Shown here in pieces: positions 28,677 through 38,168 of a stretch of 64,000 nucleotides of DNA (the first letter of the stretch is position 1; each line of letters opens with the position of its first letter). Source of the DNA: Thermoplasmatales archaeon SW_10_69_26 (lineage in GTDB: Archaea > Thermoplasmatota > SW-10-69-26); contig PXUB01000045.1 of NCBI GenBank assembly GCA_003009755.1, positions 1 through 64,000 of the forward strand, read 5' to 3'. A program made the position numbers and the translations under genes. Below the pieces are notes generated by a model. The model searched no databases and had not been told where the DNA came from. It was given only the letters and a program-made list of their open reading frames with translations.

Positions 28677-29978
28677 CTACGGCTGGATGCGGTTCGGGGT
28701 GCGCGGGAACGGGACCGCGTCGCGGACGTGGTCGAGGTTGCACAGGTAGGCGACGAAGCGCTCGACGCCGAGCCCGAACCCGCTGTGGGGGACGCTGCCG
28801 TATTCGCGGAGATCGAGGAACCACTCGTAGTCCTCGACGTCCTCGCCCTCGGCCTCGAGCCGGCGCTCGACCAGGTCGAGGTCGGTGGAGCGCTCGCTGC
28901 CGCCGATCAGCTCGCCGTAGCCTTCCGGGCCGAGCAGGTCGGCGCACTTGGCGTACACCTCGTCCTCGTCCTGGGCCATGTAGAAGGCCTTCATCTTGGC
29001 CGGGAAGTGCGTGACGAAGACGAAGCCGTCGAACATGCGGGCCAGCGCGCGCTCGTCGGGGGCGCCGAAGTCCTCGCCCCAGGAGATGTCGTGGGACTCC
29101 TCCTGCAGGAGCTCGACGGTTTCGTCGTAGGTGACGCGGTCGAAGGGGGGAGCGACCTCGGCCAGCGTGGCGGGGTCGCGGCCCAGCTGTTCGACCTGCT
29201 CGCCGGCGCGTTCGGCGACGGCGTTGCAGGCGTGGGCGACGAGCTGTTCCTGGATCTCGATGTTCTCCTCGTTGTCGCACCAGGCCTGCTCGGCCTCGAG
29301 GTGCCAGTACTCGGTCAGGTGCCGCGGTGTGCGGGACTTCTCGGCGCGGAAGCTGGGCGCCAGGCACCAGACCCGCTCGAGCGAGTAGATCATCGCCTCG
29401 AGGTACATCTGGCTGGACTGGGTCAGGTAGGCCGGCTCCTCGAAGTACTCGAGCTCGAACACGTTGGCCCCGCCCTCGGCCGCGTTCTTCGTCAAGATCG
29501 ACGGCCAGACCTGCCAGAAGTCCTCCTCGGTGAACCACTCGCGGACCGCGTCCATCGCGGTGTGGCGGACCTTGGCGACGTCCGTCAGCTCCTGGCTTCG
29601 CAGCCACAGGTGCCGGTGGTCGAGCTCGTGCTCGATGCCCTGGTCCTCGTACAGGGGGACGTCCGGGCTCTCGCCGACCTCCGCGAAGCCGGTGACCTGC
29701 AGCTCGTACCCCTCGGGGGCGCGCTCGTCCTCCTCGACGACGCCGGTGACGCGCACGCTGGCCTCGAAGTCGGTCGTCTCGGCCTCGGCGAAGACCTCCT
29801 CGCCGACCTTGTCCTTCTTGACGGTGCACTGGAGGACGCCGGTGGCGTCGCGCACGACGGCGAACACGATCCCGCCGGTCGACCGGTGGCGGTGGATCCA
29901 TCCCTGGATGAGGATCTCCTCGCCCGTGTGCTGGCCGTCGAGGATCGATCCGATCTTCACGCGTGGGACGTCGGGCAT
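28677..29978 (-). CDS. asnS: Asparaginyl-tRNA synthetase
   Basis: This is a class IIb aminoacyl-tRNA synthetase of 433 aa. It has an N-terminal OB anticodon-binding domain (about 15-110, LIQGWIHRHRSTGGIVFAVV). The catalytic domain has motif 2 APSFRAEKSRTPRHLTEYWHLEAE (about 215) and motif 3 GFGLGVERFVAY (about 400). The motif 2 context EYWHLEAEQAW is typical of AsnRS and differs from archaeal AspRS, which has EFTxxDxE. A TATA-like CTTCAAAC (minus strand, 30003-30010) is centred 28 nt before the ATG, so the transcript is probably leaderless and starts just beside the hairpin array. Confidence 0.9.
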   Translation of the reverse strand: MPDVPRVKIGSILDGQHTGEEILIQGWIHRHRSTGGIVFAVVRDATGVLQCTVKKDKVGEEVFAEAETTDFEASVRVTGVVEEDERAPEGYELQVTGFAEVGESPDVPLYEDQGIEHELDHRHLWLRSQELTDVAKVRHTAMDAVREWFTEEDFWQVWPSILTKNAAEGGANVFELEYFEEPAYLTQSSQMYLEAMIYSLERVWCLAPSFRAEKSRTPRHLTEYWHLEAEQAWCDNEENIEIQEQLVAHACNAVAERAGEQVEQLGRDPATLAEVAPPFDRVTYDETVELLQEESHDISWGEDFGAPDERALARMFDGFVFVTHFPAKMKAFYMAQDEDEVYAKCADLLGPEGYGELIGGSERSTDLDLVERRLEAEGEDVEDYEWFLDLREYGSVPHSGFGLGVERFVAYLCNLDHVRDAVPFPRTPNRIQP

Positions 29979-30013
29979 CGGGCTCGCGAACAGGCGTGCC
30001 CGGTTTGAAGCTA

Positions 30014-30141
30014 TCGGCAGAGACCGCTCGTCATCGGGGACACCGTGGACACGGCACGCGGTCTCTGCCGAGAGCCCGACCGACCACAGAGACCGCCGAG
30101 GTCGGGCGAATCCGGAGACCGGCAACACCGCACGGTCTCCG
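30014..30141 (+). ncRNA. Three-stem-loop module, copy I (putative structured RNA)
   Basis: SL1 is TCGGCAGAGACCGC (30014-30027) paired with 30058-30071: 14 perfect pairs and a 30-nt loop that can itself fold (CCGT/ACGG). SL2 is GCCCGACC/GGTCGGGC (30074-30081/30100-30107) with an 18-nt loop starting GACC. SL3 is CGGAGACCG/CGGTCTCCG (30113-30121/30133-30141) with an 11-nt loop. The linker GAATC precedes SL3. Module copy II at 38041-38168 has the same order and spacing with different stem sequences. The strand is not proven. Confidence 0.6.
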
Positions 30142-30503
30142 AAAACGACACCGCACACGATCCCTACCGAGAGGACGACCGACCGCAGCCACCACAGAGG
30201 CCGTCCGAATCGCGAGGGACGAGCCACCAGGCTCGTCTCGAGTCCGCCCGACGCACGGCCTCGGATTCGTTCGGGAAGCAAAGCTACCCTCACCGAGCAC
30301 GAACGCGAGCGCCACGCCGACCACGACAACCGAGCGAGCGTTCGTACGAAGCCCGAGACCAAGCCTTGACTCTCGAAGGGCGGAAGGGCGCCGGGTCTCG
30401 GCCCGGGGAGAGCACCGCTCAACCCCGAGACCGCCCGCCTTCGTCGACGGTCGAGCGTTCCCTCAAACGATGCATCCCCACAGCCTTTGCCGCCATCGTT
30501 TGA
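30142..30503. repeat. Continuing hairpin array
   Basis: After the three-stem module the inverted repeats continue: 30173-30180/30199-30206 (7 of 8 pairs, 18-nt loop starting GACCGCAG as in SL2), 30218-30225/30230-30237 (8 bp, ACCA loop), 30239-30246/30262-30269 (8 pairs, one G-T), 30299-30306/30338-30345 (8 bp), 30353-30360/30394-30401 (8 bp), 30404-30408/30423-30427 enclosing GAGC/GCTC, and 30463-30472/30494-30503 (10 perfect pairs, just before the next gene). No reading frame here looks like protein. Confidence 0.65.
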
Positions 30504-30512
30504 TCACCGGGT

Positions 30513-31049
30513 ATGCGATGGCTTGGGATCGCTCTCGCGGCGGCGATGGTGACGAGCGGGTGCATCGGGATCGGTGCCGAGGACCAGGCCCAGCCGACGA
30601 GCGCGTCGACGCCGACGACTGACGAGAGCGAGACCTGGACGCAGGAGACCAGCGTCGACCTCGGCTGGATCGTGGCAGCCGGCACCCACACGGCCGCCGG
30701 GGATACGATCGTCGGTGTTCGCTCGCACGACCGCTGCCCGGGCGCGTCGTTCGTCGTCCCGGCCGGGACCTCGACCGTCGCGATCTCGTTCGATGCCCCC
30801 ACCGTGGACGACGGGGTCGGGTCCTACACGGTAGCCATCGGGTCCCCGGACGCTGTCACCTACCTCAACCCGCCAGCCTCGGATCCCGCCTTCGAGGACG
30901 AGGACCCGGTCGCCGGTCCGTGGTCGATCGAGGTGAAGCCCAACGGTGCCGCCCTGAACCAGGTGTGGAGCTTCGACATCGAGCTGGAGGGGGAAGGCCC
31001 GGATCCAGGGGCCTTGGATCCCGTCAAGGACCGGGACTGCCTCCTGTGA
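30513..31049 (+). CDS. Small lipoprotein of unknown function
   Basis: This is a 178-aa exported protein: signal peptide with lipobox TSGC (Cys about 17), a Thr/Ser/Glu-rich spacer (about 22-50), then a beta-rich domain (about 50-165) with two cysteines (DRCPG and the terminal DRDCLL) that could form a disulphide. I do not recognise a family. It begins 9 nt after a 10-bp perfect inverted repeat, so that repeat could act on its transcription. Confidence 0.6.
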   Translation: MRWLGIALAAAMVTSGCIGIGAEDQAQPTSASTPTTDESETWTQETSVDLGWIVAAGTHTAAGDTIVGVRSHDRCPGASFVVPAGTSTVAISFDAPTVDDGVGSYTVAIGSPDAVTYLNPPASDPAFEDEDPVAGPWSIEVKPNGAALNQVWSFDIELEGEGPDPGALDPVKDRDCLL

Positions 31050-31055
31050 GGTCCC

Positions 31056-32384
31056 TCAGCTTAGCCGCTCGTCGACGAGGTCCTCCTCGAGTTGGAACCA
31101 GTTCGCCTCGGCTCCCAGATCCTCGAGCACGGCCATGAGGCCGAACCGGATACGAATGAGGAAGAGGAACTCGGCGGGCATGTTCAGGCGGGCGAGGTCG
31201 AAGCGGCGCTCGTACAGCTCGCGGAAGGCGACCGACTCGTCGAGATCCACTGGATGGGTCTCGTCCACGAGCCAGGCGCCGTAGAAGGACCGGATCAGCT
31301 CGTGGATCTCGTCGCGGTCCTCGCTGCCGGGCTCGACGATGCCCTGCTCGACGAGCACCGCCTCGAGCGCGTCGGGGTCGTCGTGGCGGGCCGCCCGGCT
31401 CAGGCGGGCGAGGTTGTCGACGAAGGCGTCGTCGAAGCGGCGGACGCAGCCGTGGTCGAGCACGACGAGGCGCTCGTGGTCGGGGAAGAGGTAGTTGCCG
31501 GGGTGCGGGTCGGCGTTGAAGACGCCCTCGCGGAAGAGGCTGCCGAGGTAGAAGTCGAACAGGGCGCGTCCGATCGCGTCCCGGTGCTCCTGGGAGGGGT
31601 CGCTGGCGAGGAACGTCTCGAACCCGGGAGCGTCGACGAGCTCGGTCACGAGCACGCGCTGGGAGGAGAGCTCGGGGTACACGTCCGGGATCTCGATCAC
31701 GGGGTGGTCGCGGAAGAGCCGCCGGAAGCGGGCCTGCATGCGGGCCTCGCGCTCGTAGTCGCACTCGGCGAGGAAGACCTCCCGCGCCTCGTCGTGGAAG
31801 GACTGCACCTCGGCGCCGGGCGCGATCGTTTCGACGATCTTGGGCCCGATCGCTCCAGCCCGGAAGTCCTTCTCGATGGCGTCGGCGATGCCCGGGTACT
31901 GGACCTTGACAGCGACCGGCGTCCCGTCGGGAGCCCTCGCGCGGTGGACCTGGCCGATCGAGGCGGCCGCGATCGGCTCCGGCTCGAGCTCGGCGAGGAC
32001 ATCGTCGGCCGCGGGTCCCAGATCCTCGCGGACGATCGAGCCCACGCGGTCGGCGGACAGCGGCTGGGCGTGGGTGCGCAGGGCGGCCATCGCGTCTTGG
32101 GCCTCGTCGGGCAGATCGAGGTCGAGGTAGCTGGCGAGCTGGCCGGTCTTCATCGCGATGCCCTTGAGCTGGCCCAGGCGCGCGACGACGTCGTCCACGC
32201 GCTCGCCGTCGCTGGTGGCCCAGCCCAAGGCTTGCCCGACGAGGTCGCGACCCTTGAACAGGGTCAGCGCGCTGGACCCCAACCGCTTCCACCGGGAGGT
32301 CTCCACCTCGCCGCTGCCGGCCAACAGCGCTTCGATCAAGCGCTCACGGGGGTCGCCCTCGTCCCCGTCGTCGGGGCTGGTCAC
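31056..32384 (-). CDS. ABC1/UbiB (ADCK-like) atypical kinase
   Basis: The 442-aa protein has the family hallmarks in order: the N-terminal KxGQ motif (AMKTGQLASYLD, about 80), the alanine-rich loop AAASIGQVHRA (about 138) replacing the glycine loop, VAVKVQYPG (Lys), the ExD motif in AECDYEREA (about 207), NADPHPGNYLF (about 290) and LDHGC. Bacterial and mitochondrial members support quinone or isoprenoid lipid biosynthesis with ATPase-like activity. Its position next to the isoprenoid operon (divergent) fits a link to isoprenoid quinones. It has no C-terminal membrane helices. Confidence 0.9.
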   Translation of the reverse strand: MTSPDDGDEGDPRERLIEALLAGSGEVETSRWKRLGSSALTLFKGRDLVGQALGWATSDGERVDDVVARLGQLKGIAMKTGQLASYLDLDLPDEAQDAMAALRTHAQPLSADRVGSIVREDLGPAADDVLAELEPEPIAAASIGQVHRARAPDGTPVAVKVQYPGIADAIEKDFRAGAIGPKIVETIAPGAEVQSFHDEAREVFLAECDYEREARMQARFRRLFRDHPVIEIPDVYPELSSQRVLVTELVDAPGFETFLASDPSQEHRDAIGRALFDFYLGSLFREGVFNADPHPGNYLFPDHERLVVLDHGCVRRFDDAFVDNLARLSRAARHDDPDALEAVLVEQGIVEPGSEDRDEIHELIRSFYGAWLVDETHPVDLDESVAFRELYERRFDLARLNMPAEFLFLIRIRFGLMAVLEDLGAEANWFQLEEDLVDERLS

Positions 32385-32459
32385 GAGGGAGCCTTAGCCT
32401 TCCTCCCTGAAGAGGCTGGCGCTGGCGGCCCCGAGGAGCCGGTCGGCCCGGCGCCCTCA

Positions 32460-32467
32460 GTTTTATT
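32460..32467 (+). promoter_or_regulatory. TATA-like element of isoprenoid operon
   Basis: GTTTTATT is centred 27 nt before GTG 32491 and only 15 nt before the in-frame ATG 32479. The ATG would lie upstream of the expected transcription start. Confidence 0.6.
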
Positions 32468-32490
32468 TCCGCGAGCCTATGGGCTGGTTC

Positions 32491-33474
32491 GTGACCCAAG
32501 CAGCAGCGCCGGGGAAGATCATCCTGTTCGGCGAGCACGCGGTCGTCTTCGGGGAGCCGGCGATCGCCGTCGCCATCGACCTCGAGACGAAGGTCGACAT
32601 GGTCCCGGACGAGCGTCTGAGCGGTCACCGGGTCGACGGCGACGAGATGGAGACCTACGCCCACCTCTTCATCGAGAAGGCCGTCCAGCTGCTGTGGGAC
32701 AACGCGGGCCACACCACGCCCTTGTCGATCGAGACCGACTCCCGGCTGCCCTCCGCGGCCGGGTTGGGCTCCTCGGCGGCGCTGTCCACGGCGACCTGCG
32801 CGGCGCTGCTCCGCCTGAACGACAACTTCTCCGAGAAGCGGTTGGCCCGGGCCGCCTACGAGACCGAGTGGCTGGGCCAGGACAAGCAGGGCTCGCCGAT
32901 CGACACGAGCGCCAGCACGCACGGCAACGCGATCTTCGTCTCCAGCGAGGACGACGAGGACCCGATGTGGACGATGCGGCGCGGCGACGACGAGTGGCAC
33001 GTCCACGACCAACCGATCGACCGCACGAGCTTCGTGATCGCCCACAGCGGCGAGAAGGGCAAGACCGACGAGCTGGTGAACAAGGTCCAGATGTACCACG
33101 ACCGCACCGACGTCGCGCCCAAGATCATCGAGGACATCGGCGAAACCACGATGGAGGGACGGGAAGCGCTCGTCGACGGCGACATGGCGCGCCTGGGCGA
33201 GCTGATGGACGAGGCCCACGAGCTGTTGGGCATGCTCGGCGTCTCGACGAGCCGCCTCGACGAGTTGTGCCGCACCGCCCGCGAGCACGCGCTCGGCGCC
33301 AAGCTCACCGGTGCCGGCGGCGGCGGATGCATCGTGGCCCTCACCGACGAGCCCGAGGCCTGCCGCGAGGCGCTGCGCGAGGAGCGCGCCGAGACGTGGA
33401 TCGTGCGCTCGGCCCGCAAGGGCGCCCGCGCCTGGGGCCGCACCTCGAAGCGCACCGTCGACGAGCGGCGGTGA
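32491..33474 (+). CDS. mvk: Mevalonate kinase
   Basis: It phosphorylates mevalonate in archaeal isoprenoid lipid synthesis. This is a GHMP kinase of about 327 aa: N-terminal APGKIILFGEHAVVFGEPA, ATP loop LPSAAGLGSSAALS (about 88), GSPIDTSASTHG with the catalytic Asp (about 133), and the C-terminal LTGAGGGGCIVAL (about 272). I prefer GTG 32491 over ATG 32479 because homologues begin just before APGK and the promoter spacing demands it. It leads the MVK / IPK / IDI2 cluster; no phosphomevalonate kinase or decarboxylase is in this window. Confidence 0.92.
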   Translation: MTQAAAPGKIILFGEHAVVFGEPAIAVAIDLETKVDMVPDERLSGHRVDGDEMETYAHLFIEKAVQLLWDNAGHTTPLSIETDSRLPSAAGLGSSAALSTATCAALLRLNDNFSEKRLARAAYETEWLGQDKQGSPIDTSASTHGNAIFVSSEDDEDPMWTMRRGDDEWHVHDQPIDRTSFVIAHSGEKGKTDELVNKVQMYHDRTDVAPKIIEDIGETTMEGREALVDGDMARLGELMDEAHELLGMLGVSTSRLDELCRTAREHALGAKLTGAGGGGCIVALTDEPEACREALREERAETWIVRSARKGARAWGRTSKRTVDERR

Positions 33475-33495
33475 CGGGTCGACACCGACCCCCAT

Positions 33496-33503
33496 GCATT
33501 AAG
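33496..33503 (+). promoter_or_regulatory. TATA-like element before IPK
   Basis: GCATTAAG is centred 26 nt before GTG 33526. It suggests that IPK also has its own promoter and a leaderless start at GTG instead of ATG 33505. Confidence 0.55.
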
Positions 33504-33525
33504 AATGGCTCGTGCTTGCCGGTTC

Positions 33526-34311
33526 GTGGTCCAGATCGTCAAGCTCGGGGGCTCGGCCATCACCCGGAAGGGTGAGGACCCCGAGATCCGTCGCGACGTG
33601 CTCGAGCGCCTGGCCGACGAGCTCGAACCCCACGCCGACGAGGTCGTGCTCGTCCACGGCGCCGGCTCATTCGGTCACCCGATCGCGGACGCCCACGACC
33701 TCGACCACGGGGTCGAGGCCGACCAGGTCGCGCCGCTGAGCGAGGTCCACCAGCAGGTGCGCGAGCTCAACCTCGCCGTGCTCGACACCGTGCGCACCCG
33801 CGCCGGCCCCTGCCTGGCGTTGAGCCCCTTCGGCCTGCTGAGCTGCAACGACGGGATGCCCGGCGGATGGAACCTCGTGCCCGTCCACCGGACCCTCGAG
33901 CTGGGCACGATCCCGATCCTCTACGGGGACGTCGTGCTCGACACGCAGCGCGGGGTCAGCGTGCTCTCGGGCGACCGGATCGCCGTCGAGCTGGCGCGGT
34001 TCCTCGAGGCCGAGCGCGTCATCTTCGCCCTCGACGAGGAGGGCGCCTACTCGCACCCGCCCAGCCAGGACGAGGCCGAGCTGCTCGAGGAGCCCGGCCT
34101 CGGCGACGTCCGGCGGGCCCGCGACCGGGCTCGCAAGGCCGGCCCCGACGACGCCACCGGCGGCATGGCCGGCAAGCTGGACTGCACGCTGGCGATCGCC
34201 CGCGATGGCACCCAGGTCCACCTCGTCGACGGCACCCACGAAGGCCGCGTCCGCCAGGCGCTCCGCGGCGACGGCCCCGGCACCCGCGTCGACCCGGAGG
34301 GGCAGCCGTGA
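33526..34311 (+). CDS. Isopentenyl phosphate kinase
   Basis: It converts isopentenyl phosphate to isopentenyl diphosphate, the last step of the archaeal mevalonate route variants. This is an amino-acid-kinase-fold protein of about 261 aa: VKLGGSAITRK at the start, HGAGSFGHP with the substrate-binding His (about 50), GDVVLD (about 135), LSGDRIAVELA, and TGGMAGKL (about 210). Relatives start directly before KLGGS, which supports GTG 33526. The stop overlaps the start of the isomerase gene (GTGA), showing tight coupling. Confidence 0.92.
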   Translation: MVQIVKLGGSAITRKGEDPEIRRDVLERLADELEPHADEVVLVHGAGSFGHPIADAHDLDHGVEADQVAPLSEVHQQVRELNLAVLDTVRTRAGPCLALSPFGLLSCNDGMPGGWNLVPVHRTLELGTIPILYGDVVLDTQRGVSVLSGDRIAVELARFLEAERVIFALDEEGAYSHPPSQDEAELLEEPGLGDVRRARDRARKAGPDDATGGMAGKLDCTLAIARDGTQVHLVDGTHEGRVRQALRGDGPGTRVDPEGQP

Positions 34312-35423
34312 GCGAGGAGGACGAGACCGTCTCCCGCAAGGGCGACCACGTCGACATCATCCTCGAGGACGACGTGCAAGCCAAGCACAACGCCTGGAAC
34401 GACCTCACGCTCGTCCACGAGGCCCTGCCCGAGGTCGACCGCGAGGCCGTCGATCCCTCGGCCGAGCTGCTGAACCACGAGCTCGAACTGCCCCTGATGG
34501 TCGCCTCGATGACCGGCGGCTACCCCGGCGGCGAGGAGATCAACGACCGCCTGGCGAAAGCCGCCGCCGAGCACGGGCTCGGCATGGGCGTGGGCTCCCA
34601 GCGCGCGATGCTCGACGACCCCGACCAAGCCCGCACCTACGAGGTCATCGCCGACCACGACGTGCCCTTCGTCGCCGCCAACATCGGCGCGCCCCAGTTG
34701 ATCCCCCAGGACGGCGAGGCTCCGATCGACATCGAGGACGCCGTCCACCTGATGGAAGCCATCGACGCCGACGCGCTCATCGTCCACCTCAACTACCTCC
34801 AAGAGGTCGTCCAACCCGAAGGCGACGACGAAGCCGCCGGCGTCGTGTCCGCGCTGGCCGAGCTCGTCCGCGAGGTCCCCGGCCCGGTGATCGGCAAGGA
34901 GACCGGCGCCGGCATGCACCGCGGCACCGCCCGCCGGCTCACCGAGGCCGGATGCTCGGCCGTGGACGTCGGCGGCTTGTCCGGCACGACGTTCGCCGCC
35001 GTCGAGCGCATCCGAGCCGAGGCGGCCGGCGCCGACGACGAGGCCTGGCTGGGCGAACGCTTCCGGGACTGGGGCGTCCCGACCCCGGTCGCCGTGCTCG
35101 AGGCCGCCCGCACGGAGCTGGAGGTCGTCGCCACTGGCGGCCTGCGCGACGGCGTGCACGTCGCCAACGCACTCGCGCTCGGTGCCGAGGTCGCCGGCAT
35201 GGCCAGCGCCGTGCTGGAACCGGCCGCCGAAAGCGAGGAAGCCCTGCACGCGTTCCTCGACCGCCTCGCGGCCGAGATCGAGACCGCGATGTTCCTCACC
35301 GGCGCCGAAACCGTCGACGAACTGCGTCACAAGCCGATCGTGGCCGACGGCGAGACTCGCACCTGGCTGGAGAGCCTCGGCTACGACGTGGCCGCCCTCG
35401 GCGGGCAACGGCTCGACGCCTAG
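34308..35423 (+). CDS. fni: Type 2 isopentenyl-diphosphate isomerase
   Basis: This is an FMN- and NADPH-dependent IPP/DMAPP isomerase of 371 aa with a TIM barrel. It has RKGDHVDIIL at the start and PLMVASMTGG (about 63). It also has GVGSQRAML, AANIGAPQL, HLNYLQEVVQPEGD (the substrate loop), GKETGAGM, VDVGGLSGTTF (phosphate site), ATGGLRDGVHVANALALGA, and MFLTGAETVDEL at the end. The GTG at 34308 overlaps the IPK stop. It completes the MVK / IPK / IDI2 operon. Confidence 0.95.
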   Translation: MSEEDETVSRKGDHVDIILEDDVQAKHNAWNDLTLVHEALPEVDREAVDPSAELLNHELELPLMVASMTGGYPGGEEINDRLAKAAAEHGLGMGVGSQRAMLDDPDQARTYEVIADHDVPFVAANIGAPQLIPQDGEAPIDIEDAVHLMEAIDADALIVHLNYLQEVVQPEGDDEAAGVVSALAELVREVPGPVIGKETGAGMHRGTARRLTEAGCSAVDVGGLSGTTFAAVERIRAEAAGADDEAWLGERFRDWGVPTPVAVLEAARTELEVVATGGLRDGVHVANALALGAEVAGMASAVLEPAAESEEALHAFLDRLAAEIETAMFLTGAETVDELRHKPIVADGETRTWLESLGYDVAALGGQRLDA

Positions 35424-35447
35424 CCCCGGAGCGTCCCGGGGCCGAAC

Positions 35448-35454
35448 CTTTATG
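35448..35454 (+). promoter_or_regulatory. TATA-like element and SD site of S6e operon
   Basis: CTTTATG is centred 68 nt before ATG 35519, so this mRNA has a leader. GAGGGAG (35504-35510), 8 nt before the ATG, is a Shine-Dalgarno site that favours ATG 35519 over the GTG at 35510. This contrasts with the leaderless genes around it. Confidence 0.5.
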
Positions 35455-35518
35455 CCGACGACCTTGCTTCCCAGCGCACCCCCTCCGGTGACGTCTCGTC
35501 GCTGAGGGAGTGATCACC

Positions 35519-35962
35519 ATGGTCGAGTTCCAAGTCATCGTCGGCGACCCAGAGACGGGGAAAACGCACTCCGTCGAGGTCGACGGCCAGCACGCCAACG
35601 TGTTCGTCCGCAAGCGCATCGGTGAGGAGGTCGACGGCATGTTCGTCGGGCTCCCCGGCTACACCGTCGAGATCACGGGCGGATCCGACCAGGACGGGTT
35701 CCCGATGCGCGCCGAGATCCCGCAAGCCACGCGCAAGCGCATCCTCGTCAGCGACTCCGTTGGGTTCAACCCGACCGACGACGGGGTGCGCCGGAAGAAG
35801 ACCTTCCGGGGCAACGAGATCTCGCCCGAGATCACGCAGGTCAACGCCAAGATCGTCGACCGCGGCCCCGAGGATGTCGAAAGCCTCCTCTACGGTGAAG
35901 ACGAAGAGGACGAGGAAGGCGAGGCCGAGGACGAGACCGAGGCCGAAGGCGAGGAAGCCTAA
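35519..35962 (+). CDS. rps6e: Ribosomal protein S6e
   Basis: This is a small-subunit protein of archaea and eukaryotes. The 147-aa protein has the conserved [18 protein letters not shown] start, [20 protein letters not shown] (about 47) and [12 protein letters not shown] family-typical core [21 protein letters not shown] ends near residue 118. A strongly acidic tail (about 127-147) is added, as expected for a salt-adapted proteome. It is the first gene of the S6e / eIF2-gamma / PIN cluster, an arrangement common in archaea. Confidence 0.95.
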
Positions 35963-35975
35963 AGCGAGCGCATCC

Positions 35976-37208
35976 ATGACGGAACTTCCACAACAACCCG
36001 AGATCAACCTCGGGATGATCGGCCACGTCGACCACGGGAAGACCACGCTCACGCAAGCCCTCACCGGGCGCTGGACCGACCAGCACAGCGAGGAGCTCAA
36101 GCGTGGGATCTCGATCCGGCTCGGTTACGCCGACGCAGCCTTCTACCGCTGCCCCGACCAACCGCTCCCCGAAGCCTACCAGAACAGCCCCGAGTGCCCG
36201 AGCGGCGACGAGGCCGAGCTGCAGCGCACGCTCAGCATCGTCGACGCCCCCGGCCACGAGACGCTGATGGCGACGATGATCTCGGGCGCCGCCATCATGG
36301 ACGGCGCGGTGCTCCTCATCGCCGTCAACGAGGAGTGCCCCCAACCGCAGACGAAAGAGCACCTGATGGCGATGGACATCGTCGGCCAAGAGAACGTCAT
36401 CGTCGTCCAGAACAAGATCGACCTCGTCACCGAGGAGCGCGCCCGCGAAAGCTACGACGAGATCCAGGACTTCATCTCCGGGACCGTCGCCGAGGGCGCC
36501 CCGATCATCCCCGTGTCGGCCCAGCAGGAGGTCAACGTCGACGCCCTGATCCAGACGATCGAGGAAGAGATCACCACGCCCGAGCGGGACCCCGAGGAAC
36601 CCCCGCGCATGTTCGTGGCGCGCTCCTTCGACATCAACAAGCCGGGAACCGAACCCCACGAGCTCCGTGGCGGGATCCTGGGCGGCTCCCTCAGCCAAGG
36701 CACGCTCGAGATCGGCGACGAGATCGAGCTCGCCCCCGGCCGCGAGGTCGAAGAGCACGGCAAGACCCACCGCGAACCGATCGTCACCGAGGTCACCGGC
36801 CTCGTCTCCGGCGGCTCCGCCTACGAGGAGGTCGGCCCCGGCGGCCTGATCGGCGTCTCCACGGACCTGGACCCCGCGATGACGAAGTCCGACAACCTCA
36901 GCGGTCGCGTCATGGGCCAACCCGGCACCCTGCCAGAGGTCCGCCAGCAGTTCACGATGGACACCCAGCTGTTGGACACCGTGGTGGGCGCCGCCGAGAA
37001 CAAGAAGGTCGAACCGATCCGCACCCAGGAACCCCTCATGCTCAACATCGGGACCTCGACCACGGTCGGCGTCGTCACCAGCGCCCGCAGCGACGACTGC
37101 GACGTGCGGCTCAAGCTTCCCGTGTGCGCCGAGAGCGGGCAACGGGTCGCGATCAGCCGACGACTGGGCACCCGCTGGCGCCTCATCGGCCACGGTGTCA
37201 TCCAGTAA
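35976..37208 (+). CDS. eif2g: Translation initiation factor 2 subunit gamma
   Basis: This is the GTPase subunit of the factor that carries initiator Met-tRNA to the small subunit. The 410-aa protein has G1 [10 protein letters not shown] (about 15), a switch region [10 protein letters not shown], a zinc-knuckle remnant with Cys (FYRC, SPEC), G3 VDAPGHE (about 90), G4 NKID (about 147) and G5 PVSAQ. Domains II and III follow, with [13 protein letters not shown] and [13 protein letters not shown]. The ATG follows the S6e stop by 13 nt, so the two are co-transcribed. Confidence 0.96.
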
Positions 37209-37268
37209 CAGCGTCGCGACCAACAGCCTGCACCTTTATGGGGTGGACGAGCTAGGCCTTTTGACGGG

Positions 37269-37727
37269 ATGTCGGAGGACGAACAGACCGAACCCGAGGT
37301 CGACGAGGGCGAGGAGGACACGCCGAAGCGAACCGTGATCGTGGACGCCAACGCCCTCATGATGCAGTTCCAATACCACGTGGACCTCGAACAGGAGCTC
37401 GAACGCGTCATCCCCGGCGCATTCGACGTCATCGTCCCCAGACAGGTCCTCGACGAGCTGGAGACCAAGACCGAGCGCGCCAGCGGCAAGGAAGCCGAAG
37501 AAGCCCGCCTCGGCATCGAGCTCGGTGAAACCTTCGAGGTCGCCGAGATCGAAGGCGACTTCGAGAAGACCGACGACGCCATCGTCCAAATCGCCGCCGA
37601 CCGAGACGACACCGTCGTCGTCACCAACGACAAGCTCCTCCGCGCCCAACTGCGCGCCCAAGGCGTCCCCAACGTCCACATGCGCAGCAAAGCCTTCCTC
37701 ACCGTCGAGGGCTTCCCAGGATTCTAG
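37269..37727 (+). CDS. PIN-domain protein (Fcf1/Utp24-like)
   Basis: This is a putative metal-dependent endoribonuclease of 152 aa. It has an acidic N-terminal tail (1-18) and then a PIN fold with VDANALMM (first Asp), a central Glu in RQVLDELE, Asp-Asp in EKTDDAIVQIAA and VVTNDKLLRAQL (last Asp). A PIN protein after eIF2-gamma is a conserved archaeal arrangement, and members resemble the 18S-processing nuclease Fcf1/Utp24, so rRNA maturation is a fair inference. It has its own TATA-like CCTTTATG (about 37233-37240), centred 32 nt before the ATG. Confidence 0.88.
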   Translation: MSEDEQTEPEVDEGEEDTPKRTVIVDANALMMQFQYHVDLEQELERVIPGAFDVIVPRQVLDELETKTERASGKEAEEARLGIELGETFEVAEIEGDFEKTDDAIVQIAADRDDTVVVTNDKLLRAQLRAQGVPNVHMRSKAFLTVEGFPGF

Positions 37728-38040
37728 CTCGGGAGGTCGGCTCCCTCACGTTCTCCCTCGCGAGCCCGGCCTGAGGCGACGGCTCGGGGTGTCGCTCTGC
37801 ATCGGCATGTCGCTGCCATGCCTGCTTCGAGCTCCTTCCGAGCCCCCGCTCAGGTTCTGCACTGTCTCCGGCCGCTCTCGCTCGGTCCGAACAGCTCGGT
37901 CGCCGACCTCCCTCGCACCGACGCGTCGTCGATCGGCCTGGGAGAGGCTTGCAAACCGGGGAAGCGTTCCCTGCTTCGGTCCTCTCGTCAGCGACCGCTC
38001 AGGTTGGACAGTGGATAGGCCCATCCTACCTCGGTCCGGA
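37728..38040. other. Intergenic region with scattered hairpins
   Basis: Directly after the PIN stop, GGGAG-gtcgg-CTCCC (37731-37745) is a short terminator-like hairpin. CGAGCC/GGCTCG (around 37761-37785), GGGAA-gcg-TTCCC and the overlapping GAAGC/GCTTC (around 37958-37976) follow. I see no coding potential and no tRNA. Confidence 0.6.
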
Positions 38041-38168
38041 CGGCAGAGATCGGCCATCACCCGCGGGACCTCGCGGTGACGGCTGGGCGGCTCTGCCGGG
38101 CGCACGCCCGACCGCGGGCATAGCCGAGGGCGTGCATATCCGGACACCGGTAAAACGGGCCGTCTCCG
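38041..38168 (+). ncRNA. Three-stem-loop module, copy II (putative structured RNA)
   Basis: SL1 is CGGCAGAG/CTCTGCCG (38041-38048/38091-38098), enclosing a second stack GCC-a-TCAC-c-CGCG / CGCG-GTGA-c-GGC. SL2 is GCACGCCC/GGGCGTGC (38102-38109/38128-38135) with an 18-nt loop GACCGCGGGC..., matching the 18-nt GACCACAGAG... loop of copy I. SL3 is CGGACACCG/CCGTCTCCG (around 38141-38168, two mismatches), preceded by ATATC. Element lengths and linkers match copy I (30014-30141) almost exactly while the SL2 stem differs at several compensated positions. Confidence 0.6.

Follow-up and report, generated by a model that had tools for sequence, protein, structure and literature searches.

The hairpins of REP/BIME elements are recognised as single-stranded DNA by a transposase, RAYT (TnpA-REP); the elements are short extragenic palindromes, clustered and lineage-specific, which lie mostly 3' of genes and keep perfect stems while their sequence changes (PMC3733652, PMC8266576). 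Sponge mitochondria contain repetitive hairpin-forming elements that proliferate as single and tandem intergenic hairpins, many of them beside tRNA genes (PMC2800124), and the attC arrays of integrons are tandem arrays of sites at gene ends, whose structure is kept as the stem sequence varies (PMC8266576). Finally, template switching creates perfect hairpins, and their compensatory changes, in a single step and also maintains them, and such quasipalindrome mutations, being one-step perfect inverted copies, mimic compensatory evolution (PMC8794818). The archaeal hairpin arrays described here share a number of these traits with the four systems, and differ from each of them in others.

Two three-hairpin modules of the order SL1-SL2-SL3 occupy positions 30014-30141 and 38041-38168 of the 64,000-nt stretch of DNA that we analysed (the window), as the first-pass annotation had described. 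All of their parts are read on the forward strand. In copy 1, SL1 (30014..30071) has a perfect 14-bp stem and a 30-nt loop that carries the family loop consensus CATCGGGGACNNCG. The linker GA (30072..30073) leads to SL2 (30074..30107), with an 8-bp stem and the conserved 18-nt loop GACC..., and the linker GAATC (30108..30112) to SL3 (30113..30141), with a 9-bp stem (CGGAGACCG/CGGTCTCCG). The earlier description needs correcting in copy 2, where SL1 (38041..38098) is perfect in its outer 8 bp only and contains an inner second stem, and SL3 (38141..38168) is imperfect and mismatched. The SL2 of copy 2 (38102..38135) has an 8-bp stem (GCACGCCC/GGGCGTGC) and the 18-nt loop GACC..., and is separated from SL3 by ATATC, so the linker before SL3 does end in ATC in both copies. 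A third SL2 (30173..30206, forward strand) keeps the loop and pairs over 7 of 8 bp, with one A.C mismatch, a further correction. It has no detectable hairpin of the SL1 type before it, and is followed by a hairpin at 30216..30239 on the same strand (GGGACGAGCC ACCA GGCTCGTCTC).

Copy 1 lies between divergent genes, directly upstream of the promoter region of an asparaginyl-tRNA-synthetase-like gene, asnS (28677..29978, reverse strand, divergent from the array), whose identity was read from its sequence. A promoter-side box of asnS, GGTTTGAAG at 30002-30010, is kept in a relative (L168) in which the array is absent, this being the single divergent empty site available for comparison. Copy 2 stands ~300 nt behind a PIN-domain gene (37269..37727, forward strand).

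The source genome (G000) is a MAG of 49 contigs, 2.8 Mb and ~70% GC, 95% complete, and the nearest named record to its AsnRS belongs to the Thermoplasmata archaeon MAG CSSed11_322R1 (74% identity). Searches of this genome with the two modules gave 18 and 11 matches. The first-pass annotation had looked to an SL2 covariance model for further copies, and these were found across the source genome (30 places at E<1e-3, ~25 of them strong), but not convincingly in relatives: for 292 further genomes from the phylum it gave four single weak matches only (E 1.5e-4 to 8e-4), which we treated as chance. Rfam, at both gathering and relaxed thresholds, returned nothing relevant to the arrays (tRNAs only). 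Phage and plasmid collections and viral contigs contained no relative of the arrays, with one 38-nt phage match at chance level, and a contig search with the kinase gene gave no match. A loose scan for the loop motif returned mainly false positives and was discarded. Array density is an estimate based on the window and 400 kb of sampled stretches; locus context was also sampled rather than genome-wide, with some contigs starting inside arrays, and gene calls other than the named matches rest on codon bias.

Read directly, the copies follow a recurrent order of hairpin A, GA, hairpin B, GAA, and then hairpin C or further hairpins, in which SL1 corresponds to hairpin A, and SL2 to one family of hairpin B. 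Hairpin B is the constant anchor, of the form GNACG...CGTNC (GNACGNNN...NNNCGTNC), and hairpin C is exemplified by GCCAGCATC...GATGCTGGC. The stem of hairpin A measures 9-18 bp and its loop 5-36 nt across copies; in the SL2 family these are 14 bp and 30 nt, with the loop consensus CATCGGGGACCTCG. A strict scan for hairpin A-GA-hairpin B-GA detected 6 instances in 464 kb of the source genome, and none in three shuffles or in 368 kb of relatives. A stem of at least 8 bp ending exactly at the GA precedes 15 of 40 hairpin B sequences, which come partly from loci picked for having arrays, as compared with 39 of 8395 random GA positions (0.5%).

The arrays are intergenic. On their 5' side, a same-strand gene or tRNA, facing them with its 3' end, is the nearest feature at 20 of ~26 loci; copy 1 of the window is an exception. 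The end of the adjacent tRNA or protein gene itself serves as the 5' arm of hairpin A in many copies, and the 3' arm is a perfect inverted copy of 13-18 nt, which stops exactly at GA-hairpin B. Such arms come from the ends of the tRNA-Gly genes GCC, TCC and CCC, and likewise from other tRNAs. Protein genes, named from their peptide ends, include a FixX-like ferredoxin (...GGFGVKYREG-stop), a PLP-enzyme-like gene (...DLDQALESM-stop) and a cytochrome-oxidase-III-like gene (...YAIVYLQWI-stop, an end present three times), together with a gene ending ...EVPKPGRY-stop; for some genes the stop codon falls inside the hairpin A arm. At the start of contig C6 of the source genome (L051, reverse strand), three tandem occurrences of the 3' end of the cytochrome-oxidase-subunit-III-like gene are accompanied by inverted copies and hairpin pairs.

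An inverted copy of their own end flanks 12 of the 32 tRNA genes of the source genome, against 1 of 30 in relatives. Copies of at least 10 nt of the tRNA 3' end lie within 300 nt downstream of 10 of the 32 genes, and copies of at least 10 nt of the 5' end lie upstream of 2 of the 32, with 0/32 in controls. Among 393 protein genes in unbiased sequence, two have an inverted copy of at least 13 nt of their own end, and both copies run directly into GAGTACGAACC, that is, GA-hairpin B. Inverted gene-end copies are not a general trait of protein genes.

Direct copies occur as well. Several tRNA arrays are followed by a copy of the tRNA 3' end in direct orientation, which starts at the T-loop (RAATCC...) and runs to the final base. 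At L082:1561-1925, tRNA-Arg is followed by three tandem units with near-identical tRNA-derived repeats of 52-54 nt (51/54 to 52/52 identical), and the hairpin pairs between the repeats mostly differ (42/72 to 49/79 identical), a repeat-cassette layout. The E. coli tyrT/rtT region also has tandem units behind a tRNA gene, each with a copy of the tRNA 3' end, whereas the present arrays involve many genes, for tRNAs and proteins alike, and include inverted copies and hairpin pairs. At L090:1000-1750 (reverse strand) the array borders on tRNA-Ser at the gene's 5' end and is antisense to it, and partial antisense tRNA-Ser copies lie on the other side of the array; this position at a gene 5' end, in antisense, argues for a DNA-level process.

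Both modules fold better than shuffles, with RNA folding z-scores of -5.75 for copy 1 and -2.32 for copy 2 (-1.03 for the third SL2), and DNA folding z-scores of -5.77 and -2.25 for the two copies; since the values are similar with DNA and RNA parameters, folding cannot tell one from the other. The compensated stem changes with conserved loops that had been proposed are borne out by 18 genomic copies of SL2, in which 18 cells changed on both sides versus 6.2 expected, a value reached in 0 of 500 shuffles and also far above slid controls. RNA stems tolerate G.U and not A.C, while a DNA palindrome prefers neither G.T nor A.C, since each turns into the other on the opposite strand. In the SL1, SL2 and SL3 stems of 25 SL2 copies we counted 619 Watson-Crick pairs, 11 G.T, 10 A.C and 29 other mismatches, as against 15 G.T, 0 A.C and 0 other in control tRNA acceptor stems from the own and related genomes (one-sided Fisher ~0.001 for the contrast, on small counts). 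The absence of a G.T excess, in these small counts, is what weighs most against a functional RNA. The covariation is real, yet it is not RNA-like, and the stems look like the result of DNA copying.

We hold it moderately probable that the module is a lineage-restricted palindromic DNA repeat, REP/BIME-like or mitochondrial-hairpin-like, with stems written and repaired by fold-back copying, and not a functional RNA gene. Hairpin B cassettes would be inserted or amplified at gene ends, and a nascent strand at the palindrome would fold back, copy 13-18 nt of upstream sequence and then return to the cassette. Such copying, which we infer from one genome, would write gene-specific arms and keep the stems perfect, and the writing or repair of arms in this way would produce covariation without RNA selection. 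The arrays do contain what template switching is expected to leave, namely perfect inverted copies of nearby upstream sequence; the described mutations are scattered single events (PMC8794818), whereas here the inverted copies keep recurring, at gene ends and at a single anchored repeat family. The conservation of the SL1 and SL2 loops is beyond what fold-back copying alone explains, and the uniform arm lengths (13-18 bp) and strictly kept GA, GNACG and GAA anchors also fit selection for protein binding.

The remaining systems differ in other respects. As clustered extragenic palindromes that lie mostly 3' of genes the arrays resemble REP/BIME elements, but they have no unpaired GTAG or CGTC tag of the REP/BIME type: their linkers are GA and GAA(TC), and CGTNC lies inside the paired stem. 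In addition, they alternate A-B-C, copy their arms from neighbouring genes and have no Y1 transposase, the REP-associated Y1 (HUH) family (PF01797) giving no match in the 95%-complete genome, with control genomes positive. Reverse transcriptase (PF00078) and Cas1 (PF01867) were likewise not found in the genome. RAYT/REP membership, Cas1 (CRISPR or casposon) arrays and retroelements were rejected as identities, the corresponding enzymes not being found in the genome. Without the tag and the transposase that define REP elements, we do not file the arrays as REP, though their amplification is REP-like; the spread of the family is a weak point of the fold-back reading, no transposase having been found. 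In the sponge mitochondrial hairpins the stems are conserved and the loops differ (PMC2800124), while here the stems diverge and the loops and anchors are kept. Unlike integron attC arrays (PMC8266576), the arrays are without genes, their stems are perfect, without conserved extrahelical bases, and no integron integrase was identified; inspection of the listed copies by eye revealed no RYYYAAC/GTTRRRY attC boxes.

The main rival to fold-back copying is an insertion enzyme acting on folded single-stranded DNA. An uncharacterised archaeal system might add pre-formed hairpin-pair cassettes at tRNA and protein gene ends, duplicating the target end as a repeat and writing an inverted copy of it as the first arm, and might recognise folded single-stranded DNA as integron integrases recognise attC, without Cas1, reverse transcriptase or a Y1 transposase; this we regard as possible, if rather doubtful. 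The tRNA-Arg locus, where near-identical repeats alternate with different hairpin pairs, would fit such a system, which would also account for the direct tRNA-end copies that bound other arrays and for stems that vary while complementarity holds. It is also favoured by three weak tyrosine recombinase matches (PF00589) beside tRNA genes, one of them ~250 nt from an array and none classed as IntI. The targets, however, are very diverse in sequence, and neither Cas1 nor reverse transcriptase nor a Y1 transposase was found in the genome. Moreover, two loci look like the work of ordinary integrases on the same tRNA ends. On contig C2 (L033:1615-6169) a 4.5-kb island with a tyrosine recombinase sits at tRNA-Gly(CCC); the 97-bp direct repeats on either side of it (96%) contain the tRNA end, SL1 and SL2. 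On contig C19 (58919-72484; L068, L066 and L179) a tyrosine recombinase adjoins tRNA-Phe, and the L066 array, 13.4 kb from that tRNA on the same contig, is bounded on either side by copies of the tRNA-Phe 3' end, as if an island had pushed the array off tRNA-Phe; integrases would here make use of these tRNA ends too, displacing arrays that were already present. If these ends serve ordinary integrases as well, the arrays need not come from an integrase. It is very improbable that the arrays are attachment-site debris of integrative elements with att sites at the 3' ends of tRNAs and genes: the repeats around the tRNA-Gly island and the tRNA-end copies at array ends would fit such debris, but att sites need direct copies, not inverted ones 30 nt apart, SL2 is also present where no gene end exists (as in copy 1 of the window), and the hairpin pairs follow a fixed grammar.

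A functional structured RNA, with hairpins at the 3' end that are transcribed with the preceding gene and end or protect its transcript, is also unlikely. The predominance of arrays directly behind same-strand gene or tRNA 3' ends and the conserved loops and linkers would suit it, and REPs commonly lie 3' of genes and are transcribed (PMC3733652). Against it, G.T and A.C are equally frequent in the stems, unlike in tRNA stems, arrays also occur in antisense at the tRNA-Ser 5' end and upstream of asnS, in mature tRNAs the T-arm would face competition from the inverted copies, and the SL2 model gave no convincing copy in relatives. The first-pass annotation had offered a functional RNA or a structured repeat; the structured repeat is supported and the functional RNA is not, given the module's restriction to the source genome, the parity of G.T and A.C and the hairpin arms derived from gene ends. 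A transcription terminator was rejected as the full story, because of the same antisense arrays at tRNA-Ser 5' ends and those upstream of asnS.

If fold-back copying is the right reading, palindromes are written repeatedly from neighbouring gene ends in a natural system, and a single genome can show how new hairpins and terminator-like structures originate. Covariation with a conserved loop usually passes as proof of a structured RNA, but it can then come from DNA-level copying, and a count of G.T versus A.C is a cheap control for structured-RNA claims. Should a dedicated enzyme be involved, it would represent a new kind of hairpin mobilisation in archaea.

Other hairpins were observed in the same genome. 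A second hairpin-array family (TCGAAGAGG...CCTCTTCGA), with a period of ~90 nt, lies between two protein genes at L065:1260-1780 (reverse strand). In the window, two neighbouring strong hairpins of 12 bp and 10 bp are found at 255-295 and 352-405, and a hairpin at 30463-30503 (TCAAACGATG...CATCGTTTGA) immediately precedes the gene starting at 30513.
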